Assembly: GCA_018396725.1 (NCBI GenBank) | Contig: JAGTRC010000007.1 | Span: 1 to 64,000, forward strand | From: Candidatus Bathyarchaeota archaeon | Lineage (GTDB): Archaea > Thermoproteota > Bathyarchaeia > 40CM-2-53-6 > DTGE01 | DNA length: 64,000 bases | Direction of reading: 5' to 3' | Notes under the pieces: model-generated | The model's input: the letters and a program-made list of their open reading frames with translations, nothing else | Databases searched by the model: none | What the model was told of the DNA's origin: nothing | Program-made: the position numbers and the translations under genes | Shown: positions 3,734 through 34,332 of the stretch, piece after piece | How positions within the stretch are numbered: the stretch's first letter is position 1 | Layout of the letters: every line of letters starts with the position of its first letter

Positions 3734-3739
3734 TTGGTC

Positions 3740-5665: not shown

Positions 5666-6442
5666 ATGGCGGCCCCTCTTAAAAGTTTTTTAAATGAAGC
5701 TCATAGAATAGTTGAAGCCTCGGAGGTTAAGGGGATCCCTCTGAGAGTTATAGGGGCTGTGGCGATACGTATTCACTGCCCCAATTTCGGGCACCTCCAG
5801 GACGCTCTAGGGAGAGCTTTCTCAGACATAGACTTCGTCTCCTATAGTCGATTTGGAGAAGATATAAAGGAGATTATGAAAAACCTGGGTTACGTATATG
5901 ACGAGGTTATGGCTAAAGTGTTTGAAGTCGAATTCGGCCATGTGAAAAGGATGATTTTCCTAGATGAGGAGAATAAGAGGCATTGCGACGTATTCTTCGA
6001 TAAACTTGAGTTCTCACATGATATTCCATTAGAGGGAAGGATAGAGGTGGACCGCCCAACCATACCCCTGGCTGAACTCCTACTTACTAAGATGCAGATA
6101 GTTAAAATAAATATGAAGGACCTAATCGACGCTGCCATCCTCCTCAGGGAGCACAGCGTGGGAGAAACTGATAGGGAGACCGTGAATGCCAAAATTGTGG
6201 CGGGGCTCTGTGCCAATGATTGGGGGTTATGGAAAACCGTGACGGATAACTTAAGGACGTTAAAGGATATCTCCCCGTCACTAGAGGCCTTGAATGAAAG
6301 GGATAGAGCCGACTTAGCTATCAAGATTGATAGGTTGTTAGGGTACATTGACAGGGAGCCTAAAAGCAGGAAGTGGAAGTTAAGGGCTGCTGTCGGGACT
6401 AGAAAGAAGTGGTATAGGGATGTTGAAGAGGTAAGTAGATAG
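5666..6442 (+). CDS. Nucleotidyltransferase-fold protein, module A copy
   Basis: Protein with the minimal features of the nucleotidyltransferase superfamily, probably near the AbiEii/DUF1814-like branch. A GAVAIR segment stands where the glycine-rich helix N-terminus lies, then SDIDFV supplies the two metal-binding aspartates, and CDVFFD a likely third. The rest is helical (LPLAELLLTKMQIV-like region, then KDLIDAAILL). No cognate partner gene of the toxin-antitoxin kind adjoins it. A clear paralogue lies at 25940-26692, and both copies converge on an APC permease gene. ATG 5666 aligns with the paralogue start; GTG 5654 is an alternative. Function unknown. Confidence 0.65.
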   Translation: MAAPLKSFLNEAHRIVEASEVKGIPLRVIGAVAIRIHCPNFGHLQDALGRAFSDIDFVSYSRFGEDIKEIMKNLGYVYDEVMAKVFEVEFGHVKRMIFLDEENKRHCDVFFDKLEFSHDIPLEGRIEVDRPTIPLAELLLTKMQIVKINMKDLIDAAILLREHSVGETDRETVNAKIVAGLCANDWGLWKTVTDNLRTLKDISPSLEALNERDRADLAIKIDRLLGYIDREPKSRKWKLRAAVGTRKKWYRDVEEVSR

Positions 6443-6492
6443 GTAAAGATGAATTTAATTTAATAAATAAATGTGGGGGTTTCAATTCAGCC

Positions 6493-8115
6493 TTATAGTG
6501 GTGGCACTTCCTTATAGGCTAGTAATATATCCATGCCTTCTTTCCTGAGCCTGTACGCCCTCATAGCTGAGAATATTATTAGACCGCCCAGTATGAAGCT
6601 TATGAACCATCCCACAGTGAGGCCGCTTATGAAGCCTCCAACGGCTGGGAAGAGGTAAGTGGATAGGATCATCCATATCAAGTAGCCCAGAGTTATAGCG
6701 CCTATGATTGAGATGCCCGGCACCCCGCCTACCCTGAAGTTCACCAGCTTAGGCGCCCTCTCAAACTCTTCCTTCCTTAGGAATGGATAGAGTATCGCGG
6801 CGGTCACGGGCACAAGCTGCACAACGGCCACGTAGAGCACGAAGTTAAACTGCACGAATATGACCGTGTAAACGCTGAGGGCTACCCCTATGGCGGCCAG
6901 TATCGCGCTCAGCGTCATGGCTACGATTGGGCTGTGGAGCCTCGGGTGGACGTAGGCTATGGATTCGGGCAGGCTTCTATCGAAGGCCATGGCGAAGAAT
7001 ATTCGGCTGTTATAGAAGAAGTACGTCATGGCCAGGTTGACTAAGGTGTATACGAAGCCCAACATTATCAGGAAGACCGGTATGGGATGAGGCCAAGATA
7101 TATTGGCATAGAAGGTTGAGAAGGGAAGGGCGAATTGATCCGTGTTGTAGTATAGGTATCCCTCAGCAGCCATCCATTCCAGGGACATGAGCCGTGGGTA
7201 TAGCATTACCGCCCCTAATGTGAACACCGCCCAAGTAACTATTAGGGCGCTCCAACCTCCTATGAGGAGGGTTCTAGGCGCCTCTTTTAACTCACCCGCG
7301 AAGAAGTTTGGAATGTAGTAGCCATAGTAGATCCAGAAGCCCATGATCAGCCCCGCCAGGCTCATTACATACCAGGGCGTTGGACCGTATTCCAGGCCGT
7401 ATTGCCGGGCTAACGGGATGATCTTATCGTAGGTCATGCCGATTGGCCCCATGAACTTATTCCAGGCCTCTACGAAGCCCGCGTGATCCACTCTGGCGTA
7501 GGAGATATACATGAGGATCCAGGAGAGCATCCCTAAGAAGAAGCCTAGATTTAGGATGCGAACGATGGTTCTCGTGGGCATGATCATACACACGTAGGTT
7601 ATGACCACGAATATTAGGCCTAGCACTAGAACTCCCGTAGGCGTCGCTACCCACTTAGCCCACTCCAAAGCCGAGGGATTATTGAAGATGGTGCCCCACG
7701 TCCACAGGAAGCTCGGCAGGACCGATGAGGGTATCCAAGCGATTAATGCACCAGCTGTGAGGCTGGTAAACACCGTGAAACTGAAGCTGAAAGCAAATTG
7801 CAAGTAGGGATTTATTGTCCTGCTGCCTAAAACGTAGTCGGCCCCAGACCGGGGATAGATTGATCCTATCTGTGCGTAGGTGGTGGCGTGGACCAGGCAG
7901 AGGAGCATGGATACCGTTAGGACTGCTACGAGGTCGCACCCAGGCCAGAGCCATGGGACCCACGCGTATGGTATTAGGCCTGAGGAGGATAGGCTTATAC
8001 AGTGTACGCCGAATACCATGGCTGAGAATGGCCCAATTATTCGGATGAGACCGGAGGCGCGTCTCACGAAGAGTTTCTTCTCTGACAAGTTTCCTCGTAT
8101 TAATTTTATATACAT
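6493..8115 (-). CDS. APC-family amino acid/amine permease, module A copy
   Basis: Polytopic secondary transporter (about 12 hydrophobic segments) of the amino acid-polyamine-organocation superfamily, expected to import an amino acid or related amine by ion coupling. The opening ASGLIR motif after a short basic N-tail and the cytoplasmic end RKEGMDILLAYKEVPP recur almost unchanged in the second copy at 26794-28404. It converges on the module A nucleotidyltransferase gene with 50 bases between stops. ATG 8115 is taken as start, but a TATATAAAA element overlaps it, so TTG 8088 (MSEKKLFVRR, preceded by CGAGGA) may be the real start. Confidence 0.82.
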   Translation of the reverse strand: MYIKLIRGNLSEKKLFVRRASGLIRIIGPFSAMVFGVHCISLSSSGLIPYAWVPWLWPGCDLVAVLTVSMLLCLVHATTYAQIGSIYPRSGADYVLGSRTINPYLQFAFSFSFTVFTSLTAGALIAWIPSSVLPSFLWTWGTIFNNPSALEWAKWVATPTGVLVLGLIFVVITYVCMIMPTRTIVRILNLGFFLGMLSWILMYISYARVDHAGFVEAWNKFMGPIGMTYDKIIPLARQYGLEYGPTPWYVMSLAGLIMGFWIYYGYYIPNFFAGELKEAPRTLLIGGWSALIVTWAVFTLGAVMLYPRLMSLEWMAAEGYLYYNTDQFALPFSTFYANISWPHPIPVFLIMLGFVYTLVNLAMTYFFYNSRIFFAMAFDRSLPESIAYVHPRLHSPIVAMTLSAILAAIGVALSVYTVIFVQFNFVLYVAVVQLVPVTAAILYPFLRKEEFERAPKLVNFRVGGVPGISIIGAITLGYLIWMILSTYLFPAVGGFISGLTVGWFISFILGGLIIFSAMRAYRLRKEGMDILLAYKEVPPL

Positions 8116-8131
8116 AAGTATTTAAAATTTT
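8104..8131 (-). promoter_or_regulatory. TATA-like promoter of the module A permease
   Basis: Read on the minus strand this holds AATTTTAAATACTTATG followed by TATATAAAA, two overlapping TATA-like elements directly before the permease coding region. The second favours initiation around 8085 and so the internal TTG start at 8088. Confidence 0.4.
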
Positions 8132-8335
8132 GTCATTATTAAGACTTTCCTTAACGCTCCTAACTCTAACCGTAATTATGCAATCATAGTTCGCGTAATT
8201 CGCCTCAGAAATAATGTACTATGCATACGACCTTATTTTAGGCGCCTCTAACCCCCTCCGATCGATTGAAACCTATAGTGGGGCGACGATTATCCTTGGA
8301 GAGACCCATGTTTAATCCTTATCTGTAAGCCGACT

Positions 8336-9289
8336 TTATCCTGTTATGAGCATGTATCCTTTCACAGAGTCTCTATCTAGGTTCACGATTGCACCGTGGA
8401 ATATTCCTTCAGCATATTCACTTCCCGGATTTAGACATAAGGTTCTTCCTATTCTGTCGAAAGCCCTACTTTCATGAATGTGGCCGTGGAGACCTAACAA
8501 GGGTTGATACTTCTCTATAGAATTCCTAACAGCTACACTACCCACCGACTCCATAACTATCTGTCCACCCTCATGGACTATCTGCAATTTATCGTCGAGC
8601 TTGGGTGCCAGATCTAATTTGGATCTATATGGAGGAACGTGGAAGCAGAAGATCGAGTTTCTGACATCTTTAAGCTGGGATGCCATCGCCTCTATCTTTT
8701 CAGCTAATTTATCCTCAGGTATATCCCTGGGGCAATTCCAAGGAGTTATGTTTGAGAAGCCTGTACTTATAATTTCATGATGGTCATCTATGTAGAGTAC
8801 CTTCCCTTCAGGATTTACAGCGAAGTCAGATTCCTCTAAAACTACATCTATCTCGAATCTGTCATCATTACCTGGGAGGAAGAGGAACTTATGCTTACCA
8901 TCCCCGAAATGCTCTTCAGCTAACTTTATCCATTTCCTGATTCTCTCCCTCATAAGCTCGACGAATATGCTGTCTAACTTTGCATCGTCCTTAGAGAGTT
9001 CTTCAAATTCTTCCTTGGTGAGCCTTAAGCTATAGAACCCAACACCGCTTATCTTCGCTTCTAAATCCTCCAGTTCTTTAGGGGTTCTAGCGTTATAATC
9101 CGAGTCGAAGAAGGATGCTTTGTAAGTTCCATCCTCCTCCTGTGTTATCGGAACTATAGCTTTCCCAGTGGTATCTCCCCCGACGATGAGGACATCCGCC
9201 TTATGGATCTTAGCTGCGCTTAAGAACTTCCTAAAGCATACATCAGAGCCGTGGAGATCCGTCGTAAAAAGTACCCGTGTAACCGCCAT
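8336..9289 (-). CDS. Calcineurin-like metallophosphoesterase, module A copy
   Basis: Binuclear metal phosphoesterase. The family motifs run in order: TDLHG (D-x-H) near the N-terminus, GGDTTGK (GD), PGNDD (GND in place of the usual GNH), FHVPPY (H) and LHGHIHES (GHxH). An insert of about 100 residues separates the second and third motifs. No signal peptide or membrane segment is seen, so it acts in the cytoplasm; the substrate is unknown. It resembles the protein at 24956-25906 over its whole length (shared STG.SNITPW.CPRD and CLNPGSEY-type blocks). ATG 9289 (MAVTRVLF) matches the paralogue start; GTG 9298 is possible. Confidence 0.8.
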   Translation of the reverse strand: MAVTRVLFTTDLHGSDVCFRKFLSAAKIHKADVLIVGGDTTGKAIVPITQEEDGTYKASFFDSDYNARTPKELEDLEAKISGVGFYSLRLTKEEFEELSKDDAKLDSIFVELMRERIRKWIKLAEEHFGDGKHKFLFLPGNDDRFEIDVVLEESDFAVNPEGKVLYIDDHHEIISTGFSNITPWNCPRDIPEDKLAEKIEAMASQLKDVRNSIFCFHVPPYRSKLDLAPKLDDKLQIVHEGGQIVMESVGSVAVRNSIEKYQPLLGLHGHIHESRAFDRIGRTLCLNPGSEYAEGIFHGAIVNLDRDSVKGYMLITG

Positions 9290-9341
9290 ATCTATCACAA
9301 TGCTTTGAAATGAATATGAGGTAAAAAACTTTTCTATAGGT

Positions 9342-10229
9342 TTACTTTATCGGGATCCCATGGCTAGGCTCTTTAGTTAACCTTCTAAACTCCTCTCTAA
9401 TCTTTTTTACGACAGGACCTATTTTGCCATTCCCTATCTTTCTACCGGACACCTCAACGATAGGAACTATCTCGGCTGCGGTTCCAGTTACGAACACCTC
9501 ATCCGCGTTAAACACCTCGTGGATGGTGATGTTCCTCTCCTCAACTTGGTAGCCGAGTCTACGGGATATATCGATCGCAACTCGCCTCGTTATGCCGTCC
9601 AAGACCCCCGCGGATGGGGGAGGTGTTATAACTTTTCCCTCCTTCACTATGAATATATTCTCGGTGGAGGCCTCGGCTACGTACCCCTCGTCATTCAGCA
9701 TTATTGCTTCCTCAACACCTGCCTCTATGGCCTCTATTTTAGCCAAAATATTGTTGAGGTAATTTAGGGATTTTATCCTAGGATCTAAAACATGTCTCGG
9801 CGTCCGTCTTAGGGATGAAATTATGGCCCTTATCCCTTCTTCACTGGCCCCGAATATGGGTTCTCTAGGCTCCGCCACGACAGCTATAGTGGGCGTAGGA
9901 CAATTCCTAGGATCTACCCCCATGGCCCCTACTCCTCTGGTGACAAGTATCCTAATATAAGCTTCTGTTAAACCATTCCTTCTAAGGGTCTCCGTTACTA
10001 TCCCTATCATTTCCTCTTTCGTAACTGGGATCTCAATCTTAATAGACTTAGCTGACTCGTAAAGCCTGTCTATATGCTCCCTAAGCTTGAATACCATCCC
10101 ATCGTATGCCCGTATAGCCTCGTATACGCCGTCCCCGTAAAGTAGACCGTGATCATAGATGGATATGGCAGCCTGATCCTTGGGCAAGTATTTTCCGTTC
10201 ACGTATATCTCTAGAGGTTTATCTGCCAA
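9342..10229 (-). CDS. ilvE: Class IV (branched-chain-type) aminotransferase
   Basis: PLP-dependent fold-type IV transaminase of the IlvE/D-amino-acid aminotransferase/aminodeoxychorismate lyase family, most like branched-chain aminotransferase. Family features: YDHGLLYGDGVYEAIRAY near the N-terminus, the catalytic lysine in RIKSLNYLNN, the EASTENIF phosphate-binding stretch and the VFVTGTAAEIVPI block. About 295 residues, the usual length. TTG 10229 is preferred because a CAGGAG Shine-Dalgarno lies about ten bases before it; an upstream TTG at 10250 adds seven residues. It lies 52 bases after the metallophosphoesterase region and 47 bases from the FGGY kinase, all leftward. Confidence 0.85.
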   Translation of the reverse strand: MADKPLEIYVNGKYLPKDQAAISIYDHGLLYGDGVYEAIRAYDGMVFKLREHIDRLYESAKSIKIEIPVTKEEMIGIVTETLRRNGLTEAYIRILVTRGVGAMGVDPRNCPTPTIAVVAEPREPIFGASEEGIRAIISSLRRTPRHVLDPRIKSLNYLNNILAKIEAIEAGVEEAIMLNDEGYVAEASTENIFIVKEGKVITPPPSAGVLDGITRRVAIDISRRLGYQVEERNITIHEVFNADEVFVTGTAAEIVPIVEVSGRKIGNGKIGPVVKKIREEFRRLTKEPSHGIPIK

Positions 10230-10297
10230 AGTGATGCGCTCCTGAAACAATACGCTGTATTCTTATTTATCTAAGTTTATCTATTTAAGAGTTTCTT

Positions 10298-11800
10298 TTA
10301 GCGGCTACCCTCCCAAGCTAAGATCCTTTTAACGGCTCTCCTCCAGCCGTTTAGCAGCTCTTCCCTGTGCCTCTCAGTCATCGTAGGTTGGTATATTACG
10401 GCTGGAGGGTTCAATCCCACAAGCTCATCTAAATTATTCCATAAATCGACCGCTAAGCCTGCCAGATATGCTGCTCCGAGGGCTGTCGTCTCAGATATCT
10501 TTGGCACCACTACAGGTATCCCCAATATATCTGCTTGGAACTGCATCAGGAACCTGTTGGCTGTAGGACCGCCGTCCACCTTCAATTTCCCGATGCTAAG
10601 TTCAGCATCTGCCTCCATACATTTGATAACCTCATATACTTGATAAGCTATAGCCTCAAGGGTGGCTCTGACTATGTGTTCCCTTCTAGTTCCTCCCGTG
10701 ATTCCTAAAATGGCCCCTCTAGCATAGGTATCCCAATAAGGTGCAGCCAGGCCCACGAAAGCAGGGACGAAGTATACTCCGCCGTTGTCCTCTACTCTGA
10801 GGGCGATTTCCTCCGTTTCTGAGGGGTTTGATATGATCCCTAAGCCATCTCTAAGCCACTGAACAGCCGCCCCAGCTATGTACACCCCCCCATCTATGGC
10901 GTAGGCTATCCCCGTATCTATGACCCAGGCTATGGTAGTTAATAGACCATGAGTTGAAAGTTTAGGCCGTTCCCCTATATTCATTAAAGCGAAGCAGCCC
11001 GTCCCGTAGGTGTTCTTTATATCTCCAGACTCGTAGCAGTTCTGTCCAAAGAGGGCCCCCTGTTGATCCACTATCACCCCGGCTATCGGCGTCTCTCTAT
11101 CGTAAAAAGTTTCGGGCTCCGTATAGCCTACCACCTGACTGTTCGATACTAATTTAGGCAACATTACCTCAGGTATGTCCAGCAAATCTAGTATATTTTT
11201 ATCCCATCTTAAAGTCTTTATGTTAAGCATCATAGTCCTGGAAGCAGTCGAGTAATCCGTTACAAAACATCTCCCTTTAGTGAAGTTCCATATGAGCCAT
11301 GTATCCGTAGTCCCAAAGAGAGCCTCCCCTCGCTCAGCCCGCCTCCTTACTCCTTTCACATTTTCCAGAATCCACCTCAATTTTGTAGCTGAAAAATATG
11401 GATCTATCAGGAGGCCTGTCCTCTCTCTTATGTCCTCCTCCAACCCCTTAGCTTTCAGATCCTCACACATTCTCTGGGTTCTTCTACACTGCCATACAAT
11501 AGCATTATATAATGGCTCACCAGTGTCTGAATCCCAAACTATAACGGTCTCTCCTTGGTCGGCTATCCCGACTGCCGCTATGTCTCCAGGGTTAATCTCA
11601 GCGATGGATATGGCTTCATCTATGGACTCCAGGGTACTCCTCCAAATAGCTTTAGGATCCTGCTCCACCCATCCAGGCCTGGGAAAATATCTAGGTAGCT
11701 CCCTAACCCCTGAAGCTATCAGTCTTCCCCCTCTATCGAATATGATCGCCTTAGTTCTAGTGGTCCCTTGGTCTATTCCCATGATATACTCCTGAGCCAT
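10298..11800 (-). CDS. FGGY carbohydrate kinase, glycerol-kinase-like with altered substrate motif
   Basis: ATP-dependent sugar/polyol kinase whose closest recognisable relatives are glycerol kinases: GIDQGTTRTKA phosphate-1 loop, YNAIVWQCRRT, the Asp of VDQQGALFGQ, TYGTGCF, and the C-terminal KVDGGPTANRFLMQ block. Glycerol kinases carry NQRE at the glycerol site; here the block reads DQGE, so with ATG 11800 as residue 1 the glycerol-binding Arg83 is Gly83 while Glu84 is kept. That start has a GGAGGG about ten bases upstream and gives 500 residues, the family norm; ATG 11836 would add 12. Specificity for another polyol or ketose, or relaxed glycerol binding, is likely. Confidence 0.82.
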   Translation of the reverse strand: MAQEYIMGIDQGTTRTKAIIFDRGGRLIASGVRELPRYFPRPGWVEQDPKAIWRSTLESIDEAISIAEINPGDIAAVGIADQGETVIVWDSDTGEPLYNAIVWQCRRTQRMCEDLKAKGLEEDIRERTGLLIDPYFSATKLRWILENVKGVRRRAERGEALFGTTDTWLIWNFTKGRCFVTDYSTASRTMMLNIKTLRWDKNILDLLDIPEVMLPKLVSNSQVVGYTEPETFYDRETPIAGVIVDQQGALFGQNCYESGDIKNTYGTGCFALMNIGERPKLSTHGLLTTIAWVIDTGIAYAIDGGVYIAGAAVQWLRDGLGIISNPSETEEIALRVEDNGGVYFVPAFVGLAAPYWDTYARGAILGITGGTRREHIVRATLEAIAYQVYEVIKCMEADAELSIGKLKVDGGPTANRFLMQFQADILGIPVVVPKISETTALGAAYLAGLAVDLWNNLDELVGLNPPAVIYQPTMTERHREELLNGWRRAVKRILAWEGSR

Positions 11801-11996
11801 TTTTGAGAAGCCCTCCATAGCATCTTCGAGATACAACCTATAATGAGTTTCCGAGTTTTAAACCTATTTTTCTCTCAAGCCATTTGACAGTACTTATAAA
11901 GTTATAATCAAACCTCTAAAATAGCCACGTATAGAATTCTCAATTTGTACTTGTTGAATACTTAAATACCGAGAAACATTTAATGCAGAATTAAGG

Positions 11997-12530
11997 ATGG
12001 TGGACTTGGAGCTTTCACTATTCTCGGTTTATAATCTTAAGGTGGAGTACCCATCAGATTGGAGGGTTAAGTTGAAGGATAACTCATCCCGAGCTCGAGG
12101 ACACGTAGCATTTTTGGCGTCTAATGGAAGCAGTGGCATCTTCATAACATGGGGAGAACTCCACGAAGCTAAGAAGAGGTTTAAAGATTCGAGAGAGCAG
12201 GCTGAAAATTCTCTTAAGAAGATGATGAAGGAGAGGCCCTATGGAGAAGAGGGCCTTAAAATCTTGGATCAAAGGGAACTGGAAGTAGGCGGCCATAAAG
12301 GATTCATGAACCATATGCATTTAAAGTCGCTCAGGTTCGGGGTAATACCGTTGTTCGCTAGGCCGAGGCTCAGGGATATATACGCTGTGTTCCTCCACTG
12401 CGATGAATCCCAGCGCTTCTTCGTCATAGTAGGGGACTTCGAGCCTAATGAATTGGATGATCCTTGGAAAAACCTAAATTACTACTTAAATTCCTTTGAC
12501 TGCCACCTAAAGGTTAGAGTTAAACCTTAG
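11997..12530 (+). CDS. Hypothetical protein, 177 residues
   Basis: Soluble protein with no signal peptide. The N-terminal VYNLKVEYPSDWRV and the central ITWGELHEAKKRF region recall small beta-rich PsbP/DUF1795-like proteins, a weak resemblance only. A TATA-like element (ACTTAAATACC, about 11959-11969) stands about 30 bases before the ATG, which suggests a leaderless transcript. It lies divergent from the FGGY kinase and alone; the next gene begins about 100 bases on. Function not recognised. Confidence 0.6.
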   Translation: MVDLELSLFSVYNLKVEYPSDWRVKLKDNSSRARGHVAFLASNGSSGIFITWGELHEAKKRFKDSREQAENSLKKMMKERPYGEEGLKILDQRELEVGGHKGFMNHMHLKSLRFGVIPLFARPRLRDIYAVFLHCDESQRFFVIVGDFEPNELDDPWKNLNYYLNSFDCHLKVRVKP

Positions 12531-24442: not shown

Positions 24443-24955
24443 ATTAAACACCATAAACTAAATATGCAACTCCTGAATAAAAATCTTTACCAAACTGATC
24501 CCATCAACTTATTATAGATAACTATTATTTTAACTGAAAATAAAATTCCGAGGCCTAAAGTAGATCTACAAGTTTCAACGTCTTTATTCGCTACATCCAC
24601 GTAAATTTGGGTGGTTTTCAAATCCTTGCATTATATCAGCTAACAAATAATTATCTTTTCAATTGTCCCAATAACTATGGGACTTGATTTCCGGTACTCC
24701 AACTAGCGATATGGGATGTTCAACATGGTATTATGTATCTTAATGATGCGGTTCTGGAGTTATCCGAGGATGCCTGCCATATTCGGGAGGAGGATGGCAT
24801 TAGCTTAAAACATTAAGATTTTAGATGTTTTTATTTAAATTAATTAAACTTATATCTCATACCTAAAGTAAGCTTCCATCTTAGTTTTATGAGAGGTTAA
24901 ATTTTTATCTTTGATCTTAATATTACATGGCGATGGATCTAATGAGGGAGAGACC
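24443..24955. other. AT-rich intergenic region, about 510 bases
   Basis: No gene recognised on either strand. Marks the left edge of an AT-richer block. The right end (about 24825-24860, TTTTTATTTAAATTAATTAAACTTATATC) is a strong TATA-region candidate for the module B phosphoesterase. GAGGGAG at about 24944-24950 is a Shine-Dalgarno for its GTG start at 24956. Confidence 0.45.
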
Positions 24956-25906
24956 GTGTTAACTAGAATTTTCTACGCTACAGATCTACATGGTTCAGAA
25001 AAGGCTTTCATGAAACTGCTAAGGGCAGGAGAGTTTTATGAGGCAAGTGTCGTTATAGTAGGCGGAGACATTACTGGAAAGATGGTTGTTCCAATAATTA
25101 GACAAAATGACGGAACATATAGAGTCAATTTCCTTGGAGAGGATAAAATACTTAAAAATGAAGGTGAAGTTGAGAAGATTCAGCAGTTCATCAGGGATGG
25201 CGGCAACTATCCTTACCTGACGGATGATAGGGAAATGGAGGAATTGGCCGCTAATAAGGACTTGGTTGATAAGTTATTTTCTAAATTGATGATAGAGAGG
25301 CTGCATGAATGGTTTAAAAAAGCTGAAGAAAAACTTGCAAAAAGAAATATAAAAATGTTTATCACACCAGGAAATGATGATAGCTTCGATATAGATCCTA
25401 TATTTGATAAATTTAATTTAGTGATAAATCCTGAAGGAAAGGTGATAGAGATAGATGGATACCATGAGATGATCAGTACAGGATACTCCAATATAACTCC
25501 ATGGAGATGTCCGCGAGATGTTCCGGAAGAGCAATTAGCTGAGAAGATCGAGGACATGGTCTCACAAATTAAAGATATTAAAAATGCGGTGTTCAATTTC
25601 CATTGCCCTCCATTTGATTCAGGCCTAGATATAGCACCTAAATTGGATGAGAATTTCAAGCCTGTGACTGGCGCTGACGGCTTTAAAATGATCCCGGTAG
25701 GCTCAACAGCTATACGTAAGGCTATAGAAACGCATCAACCTTTACTCAGCTTACATGGACACATACACGAATCCAGAGGGGCACGGCTAATCGGCCGTAC
25801 TTTATGCATAAATCCTGGAAGCGAGTATGGGGAGGGAATACTTAGAGGAGCTATTATAAATCTTGAGCAAGATAAAGTGAAAGGATACATGTTGACTTCC
25901 GGTTAA
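24956..25906 (+). CDS. Calcineurin-like metallophosphoesterase, module B copy
   Basis: Paralogue of the protein at 8336-9289, similar from end to end. Motifs in order: TDLHG, GGDITGK, PGNDD, FHCPPF and LHGHIHES. The long insert between the second and third motif is kept but differs most. Shared blocks include STGYSNITPWRCPRD and INPGSEYGEG. It is a cytoplasmic binuclear metal phosphoesterase of unknown substrate. GTG 24956 is chosen (GAGGGAG six bases upstream, start aligned with the paralogue); an upstream in-frame ATG at 24911 lacks such support. The nucleotidyltransferase gene follows by 33 bases, so the two are probably one transcript. Confidence 0.82.
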   Translation: MLTRIFYATDLHGSEKAFMKLLRAGEFYEASVVIVGGDITGKMVVPIIRQNDGTYRVNFLGEDKILKNEGEVEKIQQFIRDGGNYPYLTDDREMEELAANKDLVDKLFSKLMIERLHEWFKKAEEKLAKRNIKMFITPGNDDSFDIDPIFDKFNLVINPEGKVIEIDGYHEMISTGYSNITPWRCPRDVPEEQLAEKIEDMVSQIKDIKNAVFNFHCPPFDSGLDIAPKLDENFKPVTGADGFKMIPVGSTAIRKAIETHQPLLSLHGHIHESRGARLIGRTLCINPGSEYGEGILRGAIINLEQDKVKGYMLTSG

Positions 25907-25939
25907 AGTTAATGAAATATTACTGATGAGGGTTAAAAA

Positions 25940-26692
25940 TTGAACCTTATCGAAGAAGCCACTAAGATTTTAAATGAGGCAGAAAACCGTAATATAATAG
26001 TTAGAGTTATGGGGGCTATAGCTTTCAGGCTACACTCACCCAATTTCTCGTGGATTCATGAGAAATTTAATCGAGAAATTTCAGATGTGGATTTTGTAAC
26101 GTATAGCAAGTACTCCGCAGAGGTTACGAAGCTCCTTGAGGAATTCGGTTATAGAATGGAAAGAGCTCTGGCAGTATACGAGACTAAAAGGCGCATTTTT
26201 TATCCAAATAATAGAAAATACGTGGTTGATGTCTTCTTAGATGAGCTTAACATGTGTCATAAAATAAACTTTAAACATAGGTTGGAAGTTGACTATCCCA
26301 CGATCCCCCTAGCGGAGTTACTTCTAGAAAAACTACAAATAATAGAGTTCACCAAAAAGGATTTCATAGACGTAATAATGTTGTTGAGAGAGCATGAAGT
26401 GGCCAATAACGACTCTGAGGCAATAAATAGAGAAGTCATCACCAATTTGCTGTCCGACGATTGGGGATTCTACTATACAGCCACGAATAATTTAAAGAAG
26501 TTAAAGGGCTTCCTAGTCGAGCATTGCGATATATCAGGTGTCTTGAGCGATTCTGATATTAAAAATATAGATGAAAAAATTGGTTTTATACTCAAAGCTA
26601 TCGATGAGGCACCCAAAACCATGAAATGGAAGATGAGGGCAAAAATTGGAGATAGAAAAAAGTGGTATCAGGAAGTAGAATCTAAAAGATAA
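25940..26692 (+). CDS. Nucleotidyltransferase-fold protein, module B copy
   Basis: Paralogue of the 5666-6442 protein. Conserved points: VMGAIAFRLHSPNF, ISDVDFVTYSK (DxD), VVDVFLDEL (third acid), DYPTIPLAELLLEKLQI, KDFIDVIMLLREHE, DDWGFYYT and the C-terminal PKTMKWKMRAKIGDRKKWY. The last resembles PKSRKWKLRAAVGTRKKWY of copy A, so the C-terminal basic segment is probably functional. TTG 25940 is the start, with GAGGG about nine bases before. It converges with the APC permease, as copy A does. Confidence 0.68.
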   Translation: MNLIEEATKILNEAENRNIIVRVMGAIAFRLHSPNFSWIHEKFNREISDVDFVTYSKYSAEVTKLLEEFGYRMERALAVYETKRRIFYPNNRKYVVDVFLDELNMCHKINFKHRLEVDYPTIPLAELLLEKLQIIEFTKKDFIDVIMLLREHEVANNDSEAINREVITNLLSDDWGFYYTATNNLKKLKGFLVEHCDISGVLSDSDIKNIDEKIGFILKAIDEAPKTMKWKMRAKIGDRKKWYQEVESKR

Positions 26693-26754
26693 GTTGCTCC
26701 TTTAAATAGATTCAGATAATAAATACTAATAATACAAACGCAATCTCTACTTAA

Positions 26755-26785
26755 ATTAGATAAAAAATTAAATAAAAATTGTGGC
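26755..26785 (-). terminator. T-rich terminator of the module B permease
   Basis: Read on the minus strand just past the permease stop: AATTTTTATTTAATTTTTTATC, two T-runs with no hairpin, the usual archaeal form. It lies in the 101-base gap where the permease and nucleotidyltransferase genes converge. Confidence 0.4.
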
Positions 26786-26793
26786 GTTAATGT

Positions 26794-28404
26794 TTAACCT
26801 GGCGGTAGTTCCTTAAATGCCCACATTATGTCTATGCCTTCCTTCCTCTTATGGTATACTCGAGCGGCGTAGAATATGAGCACGGAGACTATGAATATGG
26901 CGATGATGAGTACTGCTACGCTTGGGGATATTGAGAGCTCTCTGAGTCCTGGGTGGACTAGATACATTCCTATCATTATGCACATATAGACTGTGGCTAT
27001 TATGCCCGCTATTGTTATCGCGGGGATTCCGAGTATTTCTTTTTTCGCTGGAGATGCCTCATAGAGATCCCTCCTCAAGTATGGGAAAGCTATGCCTGCT
27101 ATGGATGTCACGATAAATGTTATTGAGACCCCTATGGTTACCGCTGCAATTAGAGCATACATGCCGGAATATAGGTAGAACCACCACCAGAAGATACCTA
27201 TCAAAGTGAATAATGCTATGGTTTTCACCGGTGTATGAAATCGAGGATTGACATCGGACAAGAACTGGGGGGCGATTCTGTCGAACGACCATGCGAAAGC
27301 GCATCTGGTGAATAGTAGGATGTCCATGGGGATTAATATGAAAGCAGCCGCAGCGAATCCGAGGTCTATTAATGTTAGCAGTGCAGGATTCGTCTCGATA
27401 ATTCTCATTATGTTAGGCCACTCAGCAGTTATCGGGATCGCCCAGCCCTCAGGCGGATAGAGCGTAAGGTATCCGAATGCAGTATAGAATCTCCAACCTG
27501 TCACCCCCATTATTAAGGCAGTGAATATGGCGCATATTATCCCTGCTAAAATAGCGGTTCCTCCCATAGCCGTCATATGTGTTTTTACGGCATCCGCCCT
27601 CTTTATCTCTCCGGCGACCCAGTTGCTCCATACTGGTATCGTCATCAAGAACCATAGTACTGCTAGAGATCCGAGGAAGCCCGTCCCTGTCCAACCTTTA
27701 AATCCTTCTCCTAACCCTTCAGCAGTTCCGATGATGTAGCCGTATGAGTCGCTCATCCCCGTATATTCTGCTGCCCATGAATTAAAAACAGTTTTGAAGC
27801 CGTCAACTCCTAAATGTGCTGCGAATACTCCGAGTGCTAGGGCTGTGGCTATGAAGCCTAGAATTCCTGCTATGAGTTGGATCTTTGTGTAAACCTTCAT
27901 CCCCAGAACCATCATTATCCCCATTAGGATTATGTATATAATCCCAGCGATGAAGAAAGGCGTGGGTTGTGTCCAAAAGTCATATACTCCAGAGAAGCCC
28001 ATGCTTTTAGCAAGGGAAAATGAAAAAGTTAAAGTAAGCCATGCATTTAGCGGGTACCATGCTAAGCCGACCCAGAAGATATAGTTAAAGTTCATGAAGA
28101 AGCCTAGAACTGGGTGGAGGACCCTGCTTACGAAAATGTAGTCCCCTCCTGAGCGGGGCATCGCCGAGCAGAAATAGGCGTATACTGCGGCGAGCGCCAG
28201 GCTGAACGGTATGGAGACCAAAGATGCTAGGGGTAAGTGTCCTCCCGGGAAGACCGCTGCCGAAAACCAGAATATGAAGACTCCTCCGAGGAGTGGACTT
28301 AGAGCCCAGAAGCTTAGGAAGAAGGCATCCAGAGTGCTTACTGTCCTTATGAGCCCTGAGGCAGTTCTTACGAATACTCTTGGTTTTTCCAACTTATTCC
28401 CCAA
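26794..28404 (-). CDS. APC-family amino acid/amine permease, module B copy
   Basis: 536-residue polytopic transporter (about 12 hydrophobic segments) of the APC superfamily. It shares with copy A the N-terminal FVRTASGLIR motif and the cytoplasmic end RKEGIDIMWAFKELPP; overall similarity is clearly lower than between the phosphoesterases. TM1 reads SFWALSPLLGG, and a PRSGGDYIFVSRVLHP block marks TM2/TM3. It is transcribed away from the amine-oxidation/methyltransferase operon at 28718, across a shared promoter region, so it is a candidate importer for that pathway's substrate. TTG 28404 is the only plausible start near the conserved N-terminus. Confidence 0.83.
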   Translation of the reverse strand: MGNKLEKPRVFVRTASGLIRTVSTLDAFFLSFWALSPLLGGVFIFWFSAAVFPGGHLPLASLVSIPFSLALAAVYAYFCSAMPRSGGDYIFVSRVLHPVLGFFMNFNYIFWVGLAWYPLNAWLTLTFSFSLAKSMGFSGVYDFWTQPTPFFIAGIIYIILMGIMMVLGMKVYTKIQLIAGILGFIATALALGVFAAHLGVDGFKTVFNSWAAEYTGMSDSYGYIIGTAEGLGEGFKGWTGTGFLGSLAVLWFLMTIPVWSNWVAGEIKRADAVKTHMTAMGGTAILAGIICAIFTALIMGVTGWRFYTAFGYLTLYPPEGWAIPITAEWPNIMRIIETNPALLTLIDLGFAAAAFILIPMDILLFTRCAFAWSFDRIAPQFLSDVNPRFHTPVKTIALFTLIGIFWWWFYLYSGMYALIAAVTIGVSITFIVTSIAGIAFPYLRRDLYEASPAKKEILGIPAITIAGIIATVYMCIMIGMYLVHPGLRELSISPSVAVLIIAIFIVSVLIFYAARVYHKRKEGIDIMWAFKELPPG

Positions 28405-28717: not shown

Positions 28718-29923
28718 ATGACGCTACCTTCCGCATGCGATGTATTAGTCATAGGCGGTGGCATGATGGGCCTCTCTATAGCTTATAGGATCGCTGAAGG
28801 GGGCTGCGATGTGACGGTGTTTGAGCAGAGGAATATCGCTTCAGGATCGTCCGGTAGAAATGGTGGGCAGATAATTCAACTTGATGGTAGGGATAAAGAC
28901 CCTGAATCTATAGCCCGAAGATTGCTTTACGCCAAGGAGAACAATAAAATCCTTGATGATTTACCTCATGAGCTGGGCTGCGATTTTGAGCTGAATAGAT
29001 GCGGAAGCTTCGATGTGGCATTTACCGATGAAGAGGCCGAGGAATTAAACAATCTCGTTGAGATCCAAAAGAAGGCGGGAGATAGAGAGGTAGAATTTTT
29101 AGATGGAGAGGAAGTTAGGAGGCTATTCCCCGTGCTGAGAGAAGGCGTATGCGGTGCGAGATACCGCCCAACTGATGGGAACCTCGATCCGTTTAAGTTA
29201 ACCTACGGTTTAGCCATGGCGGCTAAAAAGCATAAGGCGAAGATATTCACACACTCCAAGGTAGATAAAATTCTGATAGAGAATGGGGAGGTTTTAGGAG
29301 TAAGTGTAATGGGGAAAATCGTTAAAGCTAAATGGGTTGTTAACGCCGCTAACGCCTGGGCCCCGATCCTAACGCCAGAGATAGATATATTGCCCCTGAG
29401 GCAGGTAGCTATGTTAACCGAGCCGATCGCCCCAATTACCCCCTCACCCATAGAAACTGTAATCGATGGAGACGTCATTTACACAACTACTCAAACCAAG
29501 AGTGGAAACATTATAGTAGGAGGATTAAGGACCCAGGCTAGATTTAGATCTGACCACTATAGGGAGGACGTATCGCCGGAGGAAATACAGGGAAGTACAA
29601 GCATAATCTCCAGGCTATTCCCATCGCTATCCCATGTCAATATAATTCGTACGTGGGCGGGGACCATGGGCTTTACAGCCGATGGCCTGCCATGCATAGG
29701 ATTACTCCCCGACGTAAGAGGATTAGTCATAGCTGCCGGCTTCTCTAATGGAATGGCTAATGTAGCAATAGTTGGTAAACTGGTTTCAGAGCTTATCCTC
29801 TGCAATGGGAAAACTTCCCTACCATTAGATCCATTTGATCCATCGCGCTTTTATAAAAAGAAAGTTGATTGGCCTGAGCCCTACAATTACACAGTTCTAG
29901 CCGAATTCCTAAAGAAGCTATGA
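28718..29923 (+). CDS. FAD-dependent oxidoreductase, DAO family (sarcosine/proline dehydrogenase beta type)
   Basis: Flavoprotein that would oxidise a secondary amine or amino acid (sarcosine, proline, dimethylglycine and the like). Visible: the Rossmann dinucleotide motif VIGGGMMGLS near residue 10-19, the E of VTVFEQ, SGSSGRNGGQ (the FAD-flanking loop of the family) and the C-terminal TWAGTMGFTADGLPCIG. Length 401 fits HcnC/SoxB/PdhB. It heads a seven-gene operon and overlaps or abuts the next genes, which supply the electron-transfer subunits of a heteromeric enzyme. Exact substrate unknown. Confidence 0.85.
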   Translation: MTLPSACDVLVIGGGMMGLSIAYRIAEGGCDVTVFEQRNIASGSSGRNGGQIIQLDGRDKDPESIARRLLYAKENNKILDDLPHELGCDFELNRCGSFDVAFTDEEAEELNNLVEIQKKAGDREVEFLDGEEVRRLFPVLREGVCGARYRPTDGNLDPFKLTYGLAMAAKKHKAKIFTHSKVDKILIENGEVLGVSVMGKIVKAKWVVNAANAWAPILTPEIDILPLRQVAMLTEPIAPITPSPIETVIDGDVIYTTTQTKSGNIIVGGLRTQARFRSDHYREDVSPEEIQGSTSIISRLFPSLSHVNIIRTWAGTMGFTADGLPCIGLLPDVRGLVIAAGFSNGMANVAIVGKLVSELILCNGKTSLPLDPFDPSRFYKKKVDWPEPYNYTVLAEFLKKL

Positions 29924-29940
29924 TATGGCGAGGGGCAATG

Positions 29941-30255
29941 ATGAGAATATATGATCACCCTATCTTGGGAGGTTTAAGAGAGAAAAGGAAGGTCTCCATA
30001 GAAGTTGACGGTGAAATAATAGAGGCATATGAGGGTGAACCGATCGCAGCGGCCTTATTAGCTGCGGGGATAAGGACGTTCCGCCATACACTAAGGGAAA
30101 ATAAACCTAGAGGGCTCTTCTGCGCCATCGGACGATGCACAGACTGCGTTATGACGGTCGATGGGATTCCGAATATTAGGACCTGTGTAACTCCAGTGAG
30201 GGAGGGTATGAGGGTGGAGACTCAGGTTGGATTAGGGAAGTGGAGGCGAATTTAA
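29941..30255 (+). CDS. Small 2Fe-2S protein (HcnA/SoxA N-terminal type)
   Basis: About 104 residues, ferredoxin-fold subunit that passes electrons between flavins. The cluster cysteines are in FCAIGRCTDCVMTVDGIP and IRTC (C-x4-C-x2-C-x12-C). The N-terminal VSIEVDGEIIEAYEGEPIAAALLAAG is the signature of 2Fe-2S domains in heterotetrameric sarcosine oxidase and HcnA. ATG 29941 (or ATG 29938) is preferred; an upstream ATG at 29920 overlaps the flavoprotein stop. Confidence 0.85.
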   Translation: MRIYDHPILGGLREKRKVSIEVDGEIIEAYEGEPIAAALLAAGIRTFRHTLRENKPRGLFCAIGRCTDCVMTVDGIPNIRTCVTPVREGMRVETQVGLGKWRRI

Positions 30256-31376
30256 TGGATGCAGAACTAAGCGTAATAGGATCAGGTCCAGCCGGATTAT
30301 CCGCAGCCATAGAATCTGCCAAATATGGCGTTAGAGTTGAGCTAATCGATGAAAACATTCTTCCGGGAGGACAACTTTTCAAGCAGATCCATAAATTCTT
30401 CGGTTCTAAAAAGCATTACGCCGGAGTTAGAGGTTATGATATAGGATGGAGGCTGCTAAGAGAGGCTGAGGATGCGAAAGTGAATATAAGGTTAAACACT
30501 ACGGTATGGGGAATCTTCCAATCCAGTAATAATCGGATTGGATTATTTGATCAGCAAAGAGTTTTCTTCTCAAAACCTAAGAGGCTCGTAATAGCTACCG
30601 GAGCAACGGAGAATCCTTTATCTTTCCCTGGAAGCACCCTCCCAGGTGTCATGGGTGCTGGAGCTGTTCAGACGATGATGAATATTCATAGGGTACTTCC
30701 AGGAAGGAGGGTGTTAATGGTCGGCGCTGGTAATGTTGGACTGATAGTTTCTTATCAGTTGCTCCAGGCTGGGGCTGAAGTCGCCGCAGTAGTTGAGGCG
30801 ATGCCTAAGATAGGGGGATACTTGGTTCATGCCCTTAAATTGATGAGGACAGGCGTACCTATATTAACTTCTCATACGGTGCTGGAAGCCAGAGGTGACA
30901 AAGAGGTGGAAAGCGCTGTGATAGCTTCCCTAGACAAAGACTGTCGTATAGTAAAGGGGAGTGAAAAAGAGCTTGACGTAGACCTGGTTTGCCTCGCCGT
31001 AGGATTAAAGCCCGATGCAGAACTATGTCGGATGTTAGGTTGCGGGTTTACGTACGTACCCTTCCTAGGAGGGCGCGTACCCATCCACAATGAGGATATG
31101 GAAACGACCATCCCAGGAGTATACGTAGCGGGAGATGTCTCGGGAGTGGAGGAGGCTTCGGTCGCGATGGAAGAAGGGAGGCTCGCCGGCATAAGCGTAG
31201 CGGAATCCCTAGGCTATATATCTGAGGGAGAGGCTGAAAAGGAGAAAGACGAGATTAAAGAAAGACTTAGAGATTTCAGGATAGGCCCCTTCGGCTCCCC
31301 CAGACAGGAAGGAAAGGACAAGATACTAACCGAGTATAAAAGGTGGTTTTCAAATGAGGGAAAGCGAGATTCTTGA
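30255..31376 (+). CDS. FAD/NAD(P)-dependent oxidoreductase (HcnB / PdhA-like)
   Basis: Second flavoprotein of the complex. It has two nucleotide-binding motifs, VIGSGPAGLSAA at the N-terminus (FAD) and VLMVGAGNVGLIVS near residue 160 (second dinucleotide), plus VYVAGDVSGVEEASVAMEEG typical of the pyridine nucleotide-disulfide family end. Relatives serve as the alpha subunit of hyperthermophile proline dehydrogenase or as HcnB. Its ATG overlaps the preceding TAA (TAATG). About 373 residues; the BFD-like domain that is fused here in many homologues is a separate gene 31848-32183. Confidence 0.87.
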   Translation: MDAELSVIGSGPAGLSAAIESAKYGVRVELIDENILPGGQLFKQIHKFFGSKKHYAGVRGYDIGWRLLREAEDAKVNIRLNTTVWGIFQSSNNRIGLFDQQRVFFSKPKRLVIATGATENPLSFPGSTLPGVMGAGAVQTMMNIHRVLPGRRVLMVGAGNVGLIVSYQLLQAGAEVAAVVEAMPKIGGYLVHALKLMRTGVPILTSHTVLEARGDKEVESAVIASLDKDCRIVKGSEKELDVDLVCLAVGLKPDAELCRMLGCGFTYVPFLGGRVPIHNEDMETTIPGVYVAGDVSGVEEASVAMEEGRLAGISVAESLGYISEGEAEKEKDEIKERLRDFRIGPFGSPRQEGKDKILTEYKRWFSNEGKRDS

Positions 31377-31845
31377 GAAGATAAGATCATCCCCGGGGTA
31401 TCCTTCGCGTGAGAGATTTATTAAGGGCCCCGTTTGTGTGATAGAATGCCCCGAGGAGATCCCATGCGATCCTTGCAGTCAGGTTTGTCCTTTTGAGGCA
31501 ATTGATGTTGGGAGACCGATCACGAATCTTCCGAAGCTCATTGAGGATAGATGTACCGGCTGTGGCTTATGTATAACAGCTTGCCCTGGTTTAGCGATCT
31601 TTGTGGTAAATCTTAACTATTCCCCCGGGGAGGCCTCCATATCCATGCCCTACGAGTTTCTCCCATTGCCGGATGTCGGCCAACAAGTGGAGATGCTTAA
31701 CCGGGAAGGATCATACGTATGCAAAGGGAGAATTGTTAGGGTAAATGAGGGAGAAGATCATACACGGGTGGTTACAGTAGCTGTTCCAAAGGAGTTCTAC
31801 GAGCATGCCAGGGGCATCAAGTTAATTTCAGGTAAGGTGAGGTAA
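31354..31845 (+). CDS. 4Fe-4S ferredoxin-domain subunit
   Basis: 163-residue protein with two cysteine clusters: CPEEIPCDPCSQVCPF and RCTGCGLCITACPG, so probably two 4Fe-4S clusters, then a beta-rich C-terminal domain of about 70 residues. The same domain order occurs in the ferredoxin-like subunit of archaeal amine/proline dehydrogenase gene sets. It overlaps the previous gene by 23 bases (31354-31376), so translation is coupled. Expected role: electron exit from the flavin complex to a soluble or membrane acceptor. Confidence 0.82.
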   Translation: MRESEILEKIRSSPGYPSRERFIKGPVCVIECPEEIPCDPCSQVCPFEAIDVGRPITNLPKLIEDRCTGCGLCITACPGLAIFVVNLNYSPGEASISMPYEFLPLPDVGQQVEMLNREGSYVCKGRIVRVNEGEDHTRVVTVAVPKEFYEHARGIKLISGKVR

Positions 31846-31847
31846 TA

Positions 31848-32183
31848 ATGAATGAAAACAATGAGGGGCTTAAGACAAATAATAGTGGGAATGTGGATGT
31901 TAATATGAAGAGGAGAATCATATGTCGCTGTGAAGAAGTGTCCGAGGAGGAGATATTAAAGGCAGTTAGGCAAGGTGCCACCGACCTAGATGCTGTGAAG
32001 AGAATGACCAGGGCGGGTATGGGGCTATGCCAAGGAAGGACCTGCTCTCGACTAATAGAAAATATTATTCATTATACTTTAGGTGTCCCATATGAGGACA
32101 TCGCTCCAGTAACAGTTCGAGCTCCCATAAGGCCTATTCCAGTAAAATTTCTATCCGATATGGATTTAGATCAAAAAGATTAA
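31848..32183 (+). CDS. BFD-like 2Fe-2S protein
   Basis: 111 residues. The domain is bacterioferritin-associated-ferredoxin type: CRCEEVSEEEILKAVRQG followed by GMGLCQGRTCSRLIENII (C-x-C ... C-x4-C), which binds a 2Fe-2S cluster. In many homologues this domain is fused to the HcnB/PdhA-like flavoprotein; here it is separate, with a 25-residue low-complexity N-terminus. It sits two bases after the ferredoxin gene. Confidence 0.85.
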   Translation: MNENNEGLKTNNSGNVDVNMKRRIICRCEEVSEEEILKAVRQGATDLDAVKRMTRAGMGLCQGRTCSRLIENIIHYTLGVPYEDIAPVTVRAPIRPIPVKFLSDMDLDQKD

Positions 32184-32199
32184 TGGAAGTACTAGGGGT

Positions 32200-33654
32200 A
32201 TGCCTCTTTCAGGAATTAAAGGAGGACAACTCAGATTCTTTACGAAAGATCAGATTTATAGTTTACACCTTACAAGTTTGAATGTCCTCGAGCAGATTGG
32301 GGTCATGATGGATCATGATGCCGCTTTAAAGCTCATGGAGGAGGCTGGAGCCGAAGTAGACTATAAAGATCGTATAGTTAAGATCCCCCAATACCTAGTA
32401 TTAGAAGCCCTCAGGAAAGTCCCCCGAAACATTACATTGTACGGGAGAAATTCCGAGAATGATGTAGCCTTAACTAGAGACATGATTTACAATGGCTCAG
32501 CAAACAATGCAATAGCAATCCTAGACTTCAATGGTACGCGAAGACCAGCTACATTTAAGGACCTTGAAGATTTCACTCGACTCCAAGACGCACTGGAGAA
32601 CATCCATATAATGTCTACCCCAATCACCGCTTTCAACGACGTATCCCCCAAAGGAGTTTACAAGAGATGCTACGAAGGAGTCGTAAAGAATACCGAGAAG
32701 CACGTCATCAATCAAGCAGATGGAGCAAAGGAGGTTAGAGACGAGGCGAGGATGGCCGCTGCAATAATGGATATTGAATTAGAAGAAGTGGGGAGGAGAC
32801 CTATATTCTCCGTGATAGCAGATTTAGCCCCTCCATTGAAATTTCCAAGAACTATCATAGAGGTAATAATGGAATGCGCTAAATATAGGATTCCGATATT
32901 ATTGGAGTCGGATCCATACGCGGGTGGAACGGCCCCGATTACCACTGCAGGGATAATCTTACAGCAGAATGCAGAAATATTAGCTGGAATAACTTTAACT
33001 GAGCTCGCTAAGCCTAATACACCCATAATTTATACATGTGCTCCTATGGTGTTAGACATGAGATTAGGGGTAGCCTCGTTGGGGGCACCTGAACGTGGGG
33101 TATATCATGTAGCCACCGCCCAGCTATGCCGTTACTATGGGGTACCCCTCTGCGGCGTCGCCGGTACAACTGACTCAAAGGTAGTTGATGTTCAAGCGGG
33201 ATATGAAAAAGCCATATCGTACTTAATGGCTGCCTTGAGCGGCGTTAACATAATAACCTCACATACAGGTACCCTTGAGAGCGTTCTAACGATAAGTTAC
33301 GAACAAAGCGTTATAGATAACGAAATTTATGGCATGGTATTCAGAATATTGAGGGGAGGGGACATCTCCGATGATAGCCTATATGAGGCGTTCAAGGTTA
33401 TCGGAAAAGTCGGCCCTCTTGGAAGCCATTACCTCAGCCAAGAACATACAAGAAAATATTTCCCTGTGGAGGAGTGGTTGCCGACAGTTTCGGATAGAAA
33501 TAAATGGGATGCCTGGGTAAGAAAAGGGAAGAAAACCGCTTTAAAAATGGCTAGAGAGAAGGCAAAGAAAATCTTAAAAGAGCACAGACCTGAACCACTC
33601 CCCAGAGAAACTTTAGAAGAGATCGCTCGAATAGCCGAGGAACCCATATATTAG
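32200..33654 (+). CDS. mttB: MttB-family (COG5598) methyltransferase without pyrrolysine
   Basis: Moves a methyl group from a quaternary or tertiary amine to the Co(I) of the partner corrinoid protein. It is a full-length (484 aa) TIM-barrel member of the trimethylamine methyltransferase superfamily. There is no in-frame TAG, so it belongs to the non-pyrrolysine group that includes glycine betaine, proline betaine, carnitine and gamma-butyrobetaine methyltransferases. Recognisable blocks: LLESDPYAGGTAPITTAG, YTCAPMVLDMRLGVASLG and CGVAGTTDSKVVDVQAG. ATG 32200 has AGGGG about two to six bases before. The corrinoid protein follows by 15 bases. Substrate unknown; the adjacent amine dehydrogenase suggests an N-methylated amino acid. 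Confidence 0.85.
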   Translation: MPLSGIKGGQLRFFTKDQIYSLHLTSLNVLEQIGVMMDHDAALKLMEEAGAEVDYKDRIVKIPQYLVLEALRKVPRNITLYGRNSENDVALTRDMIYNGSANNAIAILDFNGTRRPATFKDLEDFTRLQDALENIHIMSTPITAFNDVSPKGVYKRCYEGVVKNTEKHVINQADGAKEVRDEARMAAAIMDIELEEVGRRPIFSVIADLAPPLKFPRTIIEVIMECAKYRIPILLESDPYAGGTAPITTAGIILQQNAEILAGITLTELAKPNTPIIYTCAPMVLDMRLGVASLGAPERGVYHVATAQLCRYYGVPLCGVAGTTDSKVVDVQAGYEKAISYLMAALSGVNIITSHTGTLESVLTISYEQSVIDNEIYGMVFRILRGGDISDDSLYEAFKVIGKVGPLGSHYLSQEHTRKYFPVEEWLPTVSDRNKWDAWVRKGKKTALKMAREKAKKILKEHRPEPLPRETLEEIARIAEEPIY

Positions 33655-33669
33655 AGGAGGTGCGCATCC

Positions 33670-34332
33670 ATGTCATCTAAGGAGAAACTATTCAATAATT
33701 TAGTTGAGGCCGTTCTTACATTCGATGAAAAGATAATTGTAGAAAAGACCAAAGAAGCGTTATCCAGCGGGGTAGATCCGTTAGATATCATTGAGAAGGG
33801 ATTGGCTAAAGGTTTGAAAGCGGTTGGGGAGAAATATGAAGCGGGAGAATTTTTCTTAATGCATCTAATAGCAGCAGCGGAGCCAGTACAATCAGTAATT
33901 AAAGAATTACTAGAACCGGAGATTCGGAAGAAAGGTGGCGGAAGAAAGCCCCTAGGTAAAGTCGTCCTCGGCACTGTAGAGGGAGATATCCATGATATTG
34001 GCAAGAACATCGTCGGAGCTATGCTTACAGCTGCTAACTTCGAAGTTTACGATATTGGAAAGGATGTACCAGCGGAGAAGTTTGTAGAGAAGGCGAAAGA
34101 GATTCAAGCGGACATCATCGGCGCATCAGCCCTGCTAACTACTACACTACCCGGCCAGGAGAGGATCATAGAAATTTTAAAAAGGGAAGGAATAAGGGAC
34201 AGGTTCAAGGTCATTTTAGGAGGTGCACCGGTTACCGAGGAGTGGGTTAAGAAGGTTGGGGGAGACGGATACGCCGGAGACGCTGTCGAGGCCGTTAAAT
34301 TGGTTAAAAGGTTGTTAGGTGAGGGGGAATAA
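33670..34332 (+). CDS. mttC: Corrinoid protein, MttC/MtbC-like
   Basis: 220-residue methyl carrier. A helical cap domain (about residues 1-90) precedes the cobalamin-binding Rossmann domain with D106-x-H108-x-x-G111 in EGDIHDIGKNIV, where His108 is the lower cobalt ligand. SALLTTTL and LGGAPV are the other B12-binding motifs. GGAGGTG Shine-Dalgarno before ATG. It accepts the methyl group from the MttB-like enzyme; no methyl acceptor enzyme (MtaA/MtbA- or MtrH-like) or reductive activator (RamA-like) is in the window. Confidence 0.92.
   Translation: MSSKEKLFNNLVEAVLTFDEKIIVEKTKEALSSGVDPLDIIEKGLAKGLKAVGEKYEAGEFFLMHLIAAAEPVQSVIKELLEPEIRKKGGGRKPLGKVVLGTVEGDIHDIGKNIVGAMLTAANFEVYDIGKDVPAEKFVEKAKEIQADIIGASALLTTTLPGQERIIEILKREGIRDRFKVILGGAPVTEEWVKKVGGDGYAGDAVEAVKLVKRLLGEGE

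Follow-up and report, generated by a model that had tools for sequence, protein, structure and literature searches.

Gene content and organisation of the locus

The subject of this study is a cluster of seven genes in a stretch of 64,000 nucleotides, referred to here as the window, which comprises positions 1-64,000 of contig JAGTRC010000007.1 from the Candidatus Bathyarchaeota archaeon assembly GCA_018396725.1. The cluster combines the genes of a five-subunit flavin and iron-sulphur dehydrogenase with those of a corrinoid methyltransferase of the MttB superfamily and its corrinoid protein. The assembly has a size of 1.75 Mb with 98.9% completeness and 4.1% contamination and encodes a single MttB, and the contig is archaeal, since it carries a gene for TFIIE-alpha.

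The seven open reading frames span positions 28718-34332 on the + strand with intergenic gaps of -4, -16, -23, +2, +16 and +15 bases. In 5' to 3' direction, they encode a DAO-family flavoprotein, which represents the catalytic (PDH1-beta/SoxB-like) dehydrogenase subunit (28718..29923; DAO, PF01266, 242 bits), a [2Fe-2S] subunit (29920..30255; Fer2_4, PF13510, 107.6 bits) with the cysteines C68, C73, C76 and C89, and a flavoprotein subunit with two Rossmann motifs that resembles HcnB and the middle part of SoxA (30240..31376; Pyr_redox_2, PF07992; SoxA-like, TIGR01372). They are followed by a PDH1-gamma-like ferredoxin subunit with two [4Fe-4S] clusters (31354..31845; Fer4 families, CxxCxxCxxxCP motif), a BFD-like [2Fe-2S] subunit (31848..32183; Fer2_BFD, PF04324, and SO_alpha_A3, PF17806; CxC...CxxxxC motif), the non-pyrrolysine MttB-superfamily methyltransferase (32200..33654; MTTB, PF06253) and the cognate MtgC/MttC-like corrinoid protein with a B12-binding domain (33670..34332). 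The cysteine motifs for the cluster ligands and the DxHxxG corrinoid motif are all intact, so that the coordinates, family matches and motifs together confirm the seven tightly packed rightward genes of the preliminary description, which was made from the sequence alone. Because a member of another archaeal family keeps the gene order and a spirochaete carries the set too, as discussed below, the operon is regarded as more than a chance arrangement, and the overlaps together with the synteny lead us to infer one transcript across all seven genes.

The dehydrogenase and its relatives

The best match of the DAO subunit in the PDB is the beta subunit of the L-proline dehydrogenase from Pyrococcus horikoshii (1y56_B, 3e-51), and the [2Fe-2S] protein corresponds to the N-terminal domain of SoxA and PDH-alpha standing as a separate protein. 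All subunit types of PDH1 are present in the operon, namely the DAO protein, the SoxA/HcnB-type flavoprotein, the two-cluster ferredoxin and the BFD protein, with the alpha subunit split in two; the ferredoxin and BFD-type subunits are taken by us to be the equivalents of PDH1 gamma and delta. The previously noted likeness of the flavin proteins to archaeal proline dehydrogenase is borne out by the subunit set and the PDB match. In common with PDH1 of Thermococcus and Pyrococcus (PDB 1y56), the operon has a DAO beta subunit, a SoxA/HcnB-type alpha subunit and small iron-sulphur subunits, but it differs in its separate DAO subfamily, in the division of alpha into a Fer2 and an HcnB protein, and in the MttB alongside. 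In the DAO tree, nine proteins of this subfamily, including spirochaete copies, group together with a support of 100/100, while PH1364 from P. horikoshii lies in another group. Judged by sequence, the dehydrogenase is therefore nearest to archaeal PDH1 in its subunit set, yet forms its own subfamily.

Membership in the sarcosine oxidases (SoxBDAG) was rejected, as neither a folate-binding aminomethyltransferase (GcvT) domain nor SoxD or SoxG is found among the seven proteins. The set also departs from the three-gene alpha-beta-gamma make-up of the HcnABC/opine dehydrogenases, since its five subunits are all encoded separately and one of them is a two-cluster ferredoxin. The DAO subunit has Met317 where the aligned glycine oxidases have an arginine that presumably interacts with the carboxylate, a difference that was not used as evidence. 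A plasmid search yielded only general DAO proteins with about 30% identity.

The methyltransferase and the corrinoid protein

The match of the methyltransferase to PF06253 reaches 322 bits against a cut-off of 25. Its reading frame has no in-frame TAG other than the stop codon (33652-33654), and Thr323 stands at the Pyl334 position, where pyrrolysine would be, which rules out a pyrrolysine-type MttB, as had been proposed from the absence of the TAG codon. The predicted model (pLDDT, the predicted local distance difference test score, of 89) has MtgB (9yce) as the closest solved structure and fold, with a TM (template modelling) score of 0.91. With MtgB and MtgC of Desulfitobacterium hafniense (9yce, 2qne) the pair shares the MttB-superfamily TIM barrel, the lack of pyrrolysine and the pairing with a corrinoid protein at an identity of 32-33%. 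The corrinoid protein exceeds the cut-off of TIGR02370, carries the motif DIHDIG and has its best scores with MtgC models, whose cut-offs it does not reach (NF047995, 231.9 bits against 310).

However, the methyltransferase differs from MtgB in its clade and in its pocket. In the MttB tree it groups with those of two further genomes, an archaeon (G043) and a spirochaete (G394), and with a copy from locus L033, apart from the MtgB clade. Docking placed Y94, N199, R309, H345 and F/Y353 of MtgB around glycine betaine (PMC6855144), and in the alignment all five predicted contacts are replaced, by N102, D208, C318, S354 and V362. In addition, Asp238 stands at the pocket position of the mobile Met249 of the M. 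barkeri MttB (PMC9842639), and of 73 aligned MttBs only those of the window, G043 and G394 have an aspartate there. Membership in MtgB is rejected by the tree position and the loss of the five docking-predicted contacts, and the earlier assignment to the betaine-type methyltransferases does not hold. On this alignment, the substrate would not be glycine betaine and may lack an acid group altogether. A physiological substrate has been reported for only six members of the MttB superfamily, of which the non-pyrrolysine ones use acidic quaternary amines (PMC12155760). As the predicted acid-binding residues of MtgB are gone and Asp238 lies where the cation would sit, we tentatively consider, while regarding it as rather doubtful, that the clade of the window, G043 and G394 uses a quaternary amine with neither carboxylate nor phosphate, which would be an undescribed substrate class coupled to a dedicated tertiary-amine dehydrogenase.

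Conservation in archaea and neighbouring genes

MttB is present in 41 of 300 genomes of the phylum. Among approximately 40 MttB-bearing stretches with flanks, the dehydrogenase set adjoins MttB in one further case, G043, which belongs to the same order but another family. It keeps the order APC-DAO-Fer2-HcnB-Fd-BFD-MttB, with the permease divergent as in the window, where the APC-type amino-acid/amine permease lies at 26794..28404 on the - strand (PF13520). The sequence identities between the two are 77% for DAO, 76% each for Fer2 and HcnB, 69% each for the ferredoxin and BFD, 65% for MttB and 80% for the permease.

Next to the permease, the window encodes a calcineurin-like phosphoesterase (24911..25906; +; PF00149) and a nucleotidyltransferase-like protein (25940..26692; +; weak PF08843/PF14907), which are 75% and 62% identical to those of G043, respectively, and both go with APC permeases. 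The trio of permease, phosphoesterase and nucleotidyltransferase-like protein is present in two copies in the window (24911-28404 and 5654-9298) and also stands beside MttB in the archaeal loci L034, L036, L037, L048 and L049. In Eubacterium limosum, choline is activated by the kinase MthK (PMC12155760), and a similar role of phosphoesterase and nucleotidyltransferase as substrate activators was considered and dropped, as the phosphoesterase family is far more common than MttB, being matched in 180 of the 300 genomes of the phylum (many of the matches weak) as opposed to 41; it thus tracks the APC permeases and not MttB.

In G043, the genes just past the permease (L032:14562-18000) encode a protein of 400 amino acids that matches no Pfam family, a ferredoxin-like protein and also an aldehyde:ferredoxin oxidoreductase. 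Positions 5654-12530 of the window (nucleotidyltransferase, APC permease, phosphoesterase, aminotransferase IV, FGGY kinase and a protein of 177 amino acids) are orthologous to another G043 locus (L035, L161), which additionally contains MttC, MttB and MtrH, absent from the window stretch. The nearest relative of the operon's corrinoid protein in the examined G043 loci is this MttC, with 67% identity and beside another MttB. Positions 3-4630 of the window carry PotD/PotA/PotBC-like ABC transporter genes, and the same transporter type follows a spirochaete copy of the operon (L196).

Occurrence in bacteria and repeated pairing

A contig scan with MttB as query gave only distant matches (best 39%), whose flanks led to cases in spirochaetes and Anaerolineales. 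In the spirochaete G394, the order is MttC-MttB-DAO-Fer2-HcnB-Fd-BFD, downstream of which lie genes for a zinc alcohol dehydrogenase and a transporter of the PotABCD type. The HcnB-like subunit of G394 is 59% identical to that of the window. A second spirochaete, G332, has MttB-DAO-Fer2-HcnB-Fd-BFD, further MttB-less copies of the set (L170, L171, L172) and an MttB next to a DAO gene that carries an internal stop. The DAO subfamily exceeds 400 bits in only 3 of 149 spirochaete genomes, as opposed to matches below 132 bits in the rest. In one spirochaete locus (L108:11234-12427), the DAO gene beside MttB is broken by one TAA and may be a decayed copy.

Between G394 and G332, the DAO proteins are 70% and the HcnB proteins 72% identical, but their MttBs only 31%. 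The MttBs of the window, G043 and G394 group at 100/99 while those of G332 lie in another clade, and a single clade for all five MttBs of these genomes is rejected by the approximately unbiased test (p-AU 0.001). Since closely similar dehydrogenases occur with two different MttBs, the coupling has been rebuilt at least twice, and this re-pairing is the strongest sign that both activities belong to one pathway.

Less closely related dehydrogenase sets also stand by MttB in Ca. Formimonas DCMF (L217), a Syntrophomonadaceae member (L215), an Anaerolineales member (L103) and the spirochaete G336 (L199); in L199 and L103, the MttB by the dehydrogenase genes is of the MtgB type and retains the five contacts. 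In the cultured Ca. Formimonas warabiya DCMF (L217:7169-12019), the gene directly after Fer2-HcnB-Fd-BFD-DAO encodes an MttB that lacks the MtgB contacts. In a Desulfocapsaceae member (L089:1001-4958), a dimethylglycine-dehydrogenase-like gene immediately precedes an MttB frame, which is apparently split near the pyrrolysine site.

Proposed pathway and alternative explanations

We consider it probable, at roughly 70%, that the operon serves to break down a methylated quaternary amine in two stages, in which MttB would carry out the demethylation and the dehydrogenase would then oxidise the resulting tertiary amine. The permease would import the substrate, and MttB would transfer one methyl group to the corrinoid protein, with Co(I) as the acceptor, and so produce the tertiary amine. 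Flavin-dependent amine oxidation requires a lone pair, which a quaternary nitrogen lacks, so the oxidation must come after the demethylation. The five-subunit PDH1-type complex would then dehydrogenate the tertiary amine, with the FAD of the DAO subunit taking electrons from the substrate and handing them to the interface flavin and on to the iron-sulphur clusters; the assembly of the subunits, the order of the two reactions and this electron path are all inferred. Pathway genes in the genome of the operon were searched one family at a time, and two MtrH, one AcsV/RamA-type corrinoid activase and Mch were found, which makes a route from the methyl-corrinoid to tetrahydromethanopterin plausible: an MtrH-type methyltransferase encoded elsewhere would unload the methyl group to the pterin, and the activase would keep the corrinoid active. 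A published parallel for such a route is found in the Culexarchaeia (PMC9723716). The preliminary description had proposed demethylation via MttB and the corrinoid protein followed by oxidation of a secondary amine; the sequence of steps is retained, but an MttB acting on a quaternary amine gives a tertiary and not a secondary product. Its view of the methyltransferase pair and the heteromeric amine dehydrogenase as one functional unit is supported by the gene order kept in G043 and by the recurring pairing.

Several observations weigh against this interpretation. The dehydrogenase set also occurs without MttB (L170, L171, L197), and the MtrH and activase genes lie on another contig than the operon. 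No corrinoid gene adjoins the G043 cluster, which shows that the operon can occur without this gene. Finally, the spread is patchy, as the DAO subfamily is present in 2 and any MttB in 12 of the 38 genomes of the order, a distribution that suggests horizontal transfer.

The copies of the set without MttB, which exist in archaea and bacteria, would also fit two unrelated functions on one transcript, that is, an operon for an amino-acid dehydrogenase to which a methyltransferase pair was added downstream; yet the dehydrogenase is found with MttBs of different clades, in both gene orders and in two domains, and we regard this explanation as quite improbable. The substrate could also be glycine betaine, with MttB as a functional MtgB and the dehydrogenase acting on dimethylglycine or sarcosine. 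The fold closest to MtgB, the best scores of the corrinoid protein with MtgC models and the five-contact MttBs beside dehydrogenase genes in L199 and L103 are in line with this, but the MttB of the window does not fall into the MtgB clade and has none of the five docking-predicted contacts (PMC6855144), and an MttB retaining all five exists separately in G043 (L035:11239-12684), which makes a glycine-betaine pathway unlikely. The relationship to the P. horikoshii enzyme and the fit of the ferredoxin and BFD subunits to the PDH1 set would instead favour proline betaine, from which MttB would yield N-methylproline and the PDH1-like complex would oxidise the C-N bond of the ring in the manner of proline dehydrogenase. 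This is likewise improbable, because the DAO subfamily stands apart from PH1364, the predicted carboxylate contacts are lost in MttB and no gene of the pyrroline-5-carboxylate (P5C) or glutamate pathway was recognised in the cluster.

Relation to known systems and significance

In marine Proteobacteria, glycine betaine undergoes a corrinoid-dependent first step and the genes for the later demethylations are co-located with mtgBCD (PMC12478193), and in a cold seep soxB and DMGDH are among the genes of mtgB/grdH contigs according to a figure legend (PMC8547467). The operon shares with these clusters a corrinoid methyltransferase taking the first methyl group, oxidative later steps and the co-location of the genes, but differs in being archaeal, in its five-subunit dehydrogenase without a GcvT (folate) domain in the cluster and in an MttB that does not belong to the betaine clade. 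Other archaea with MttB homologues and corrinoid proteins are the Culexarchaeia, there in mtrH-mttB-mttC loci with the adjacent MtrH-type acceptor gene (PMC9723716), and the Brockarchaeota (PMC8065059); the parts of these two sources that were consulted do not describe a dehydrogenase cluster. A literature search in which subscription journals were little covered found no description of an operon of a five-subunit dehydrogenase and MttB. Thus, the corrinoid step with co-located later demethylation genes is already known for glycine betaine, whereas that search found no description of a version with five dehydrogenase subunits, of its presence in archaea or of a partner other than MtgB.

As the operon names its own second enzyme, it offers a means of identifying the substrate, which must both donate a methyl group to MttB and, once demethylated, feed the dehydrogenase. 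Archaea and bacteria would also have rebuilt the same route of demethylation followed by oxidation, which would carry methylated nitrogen compounds beyond the removal of the methyl group.

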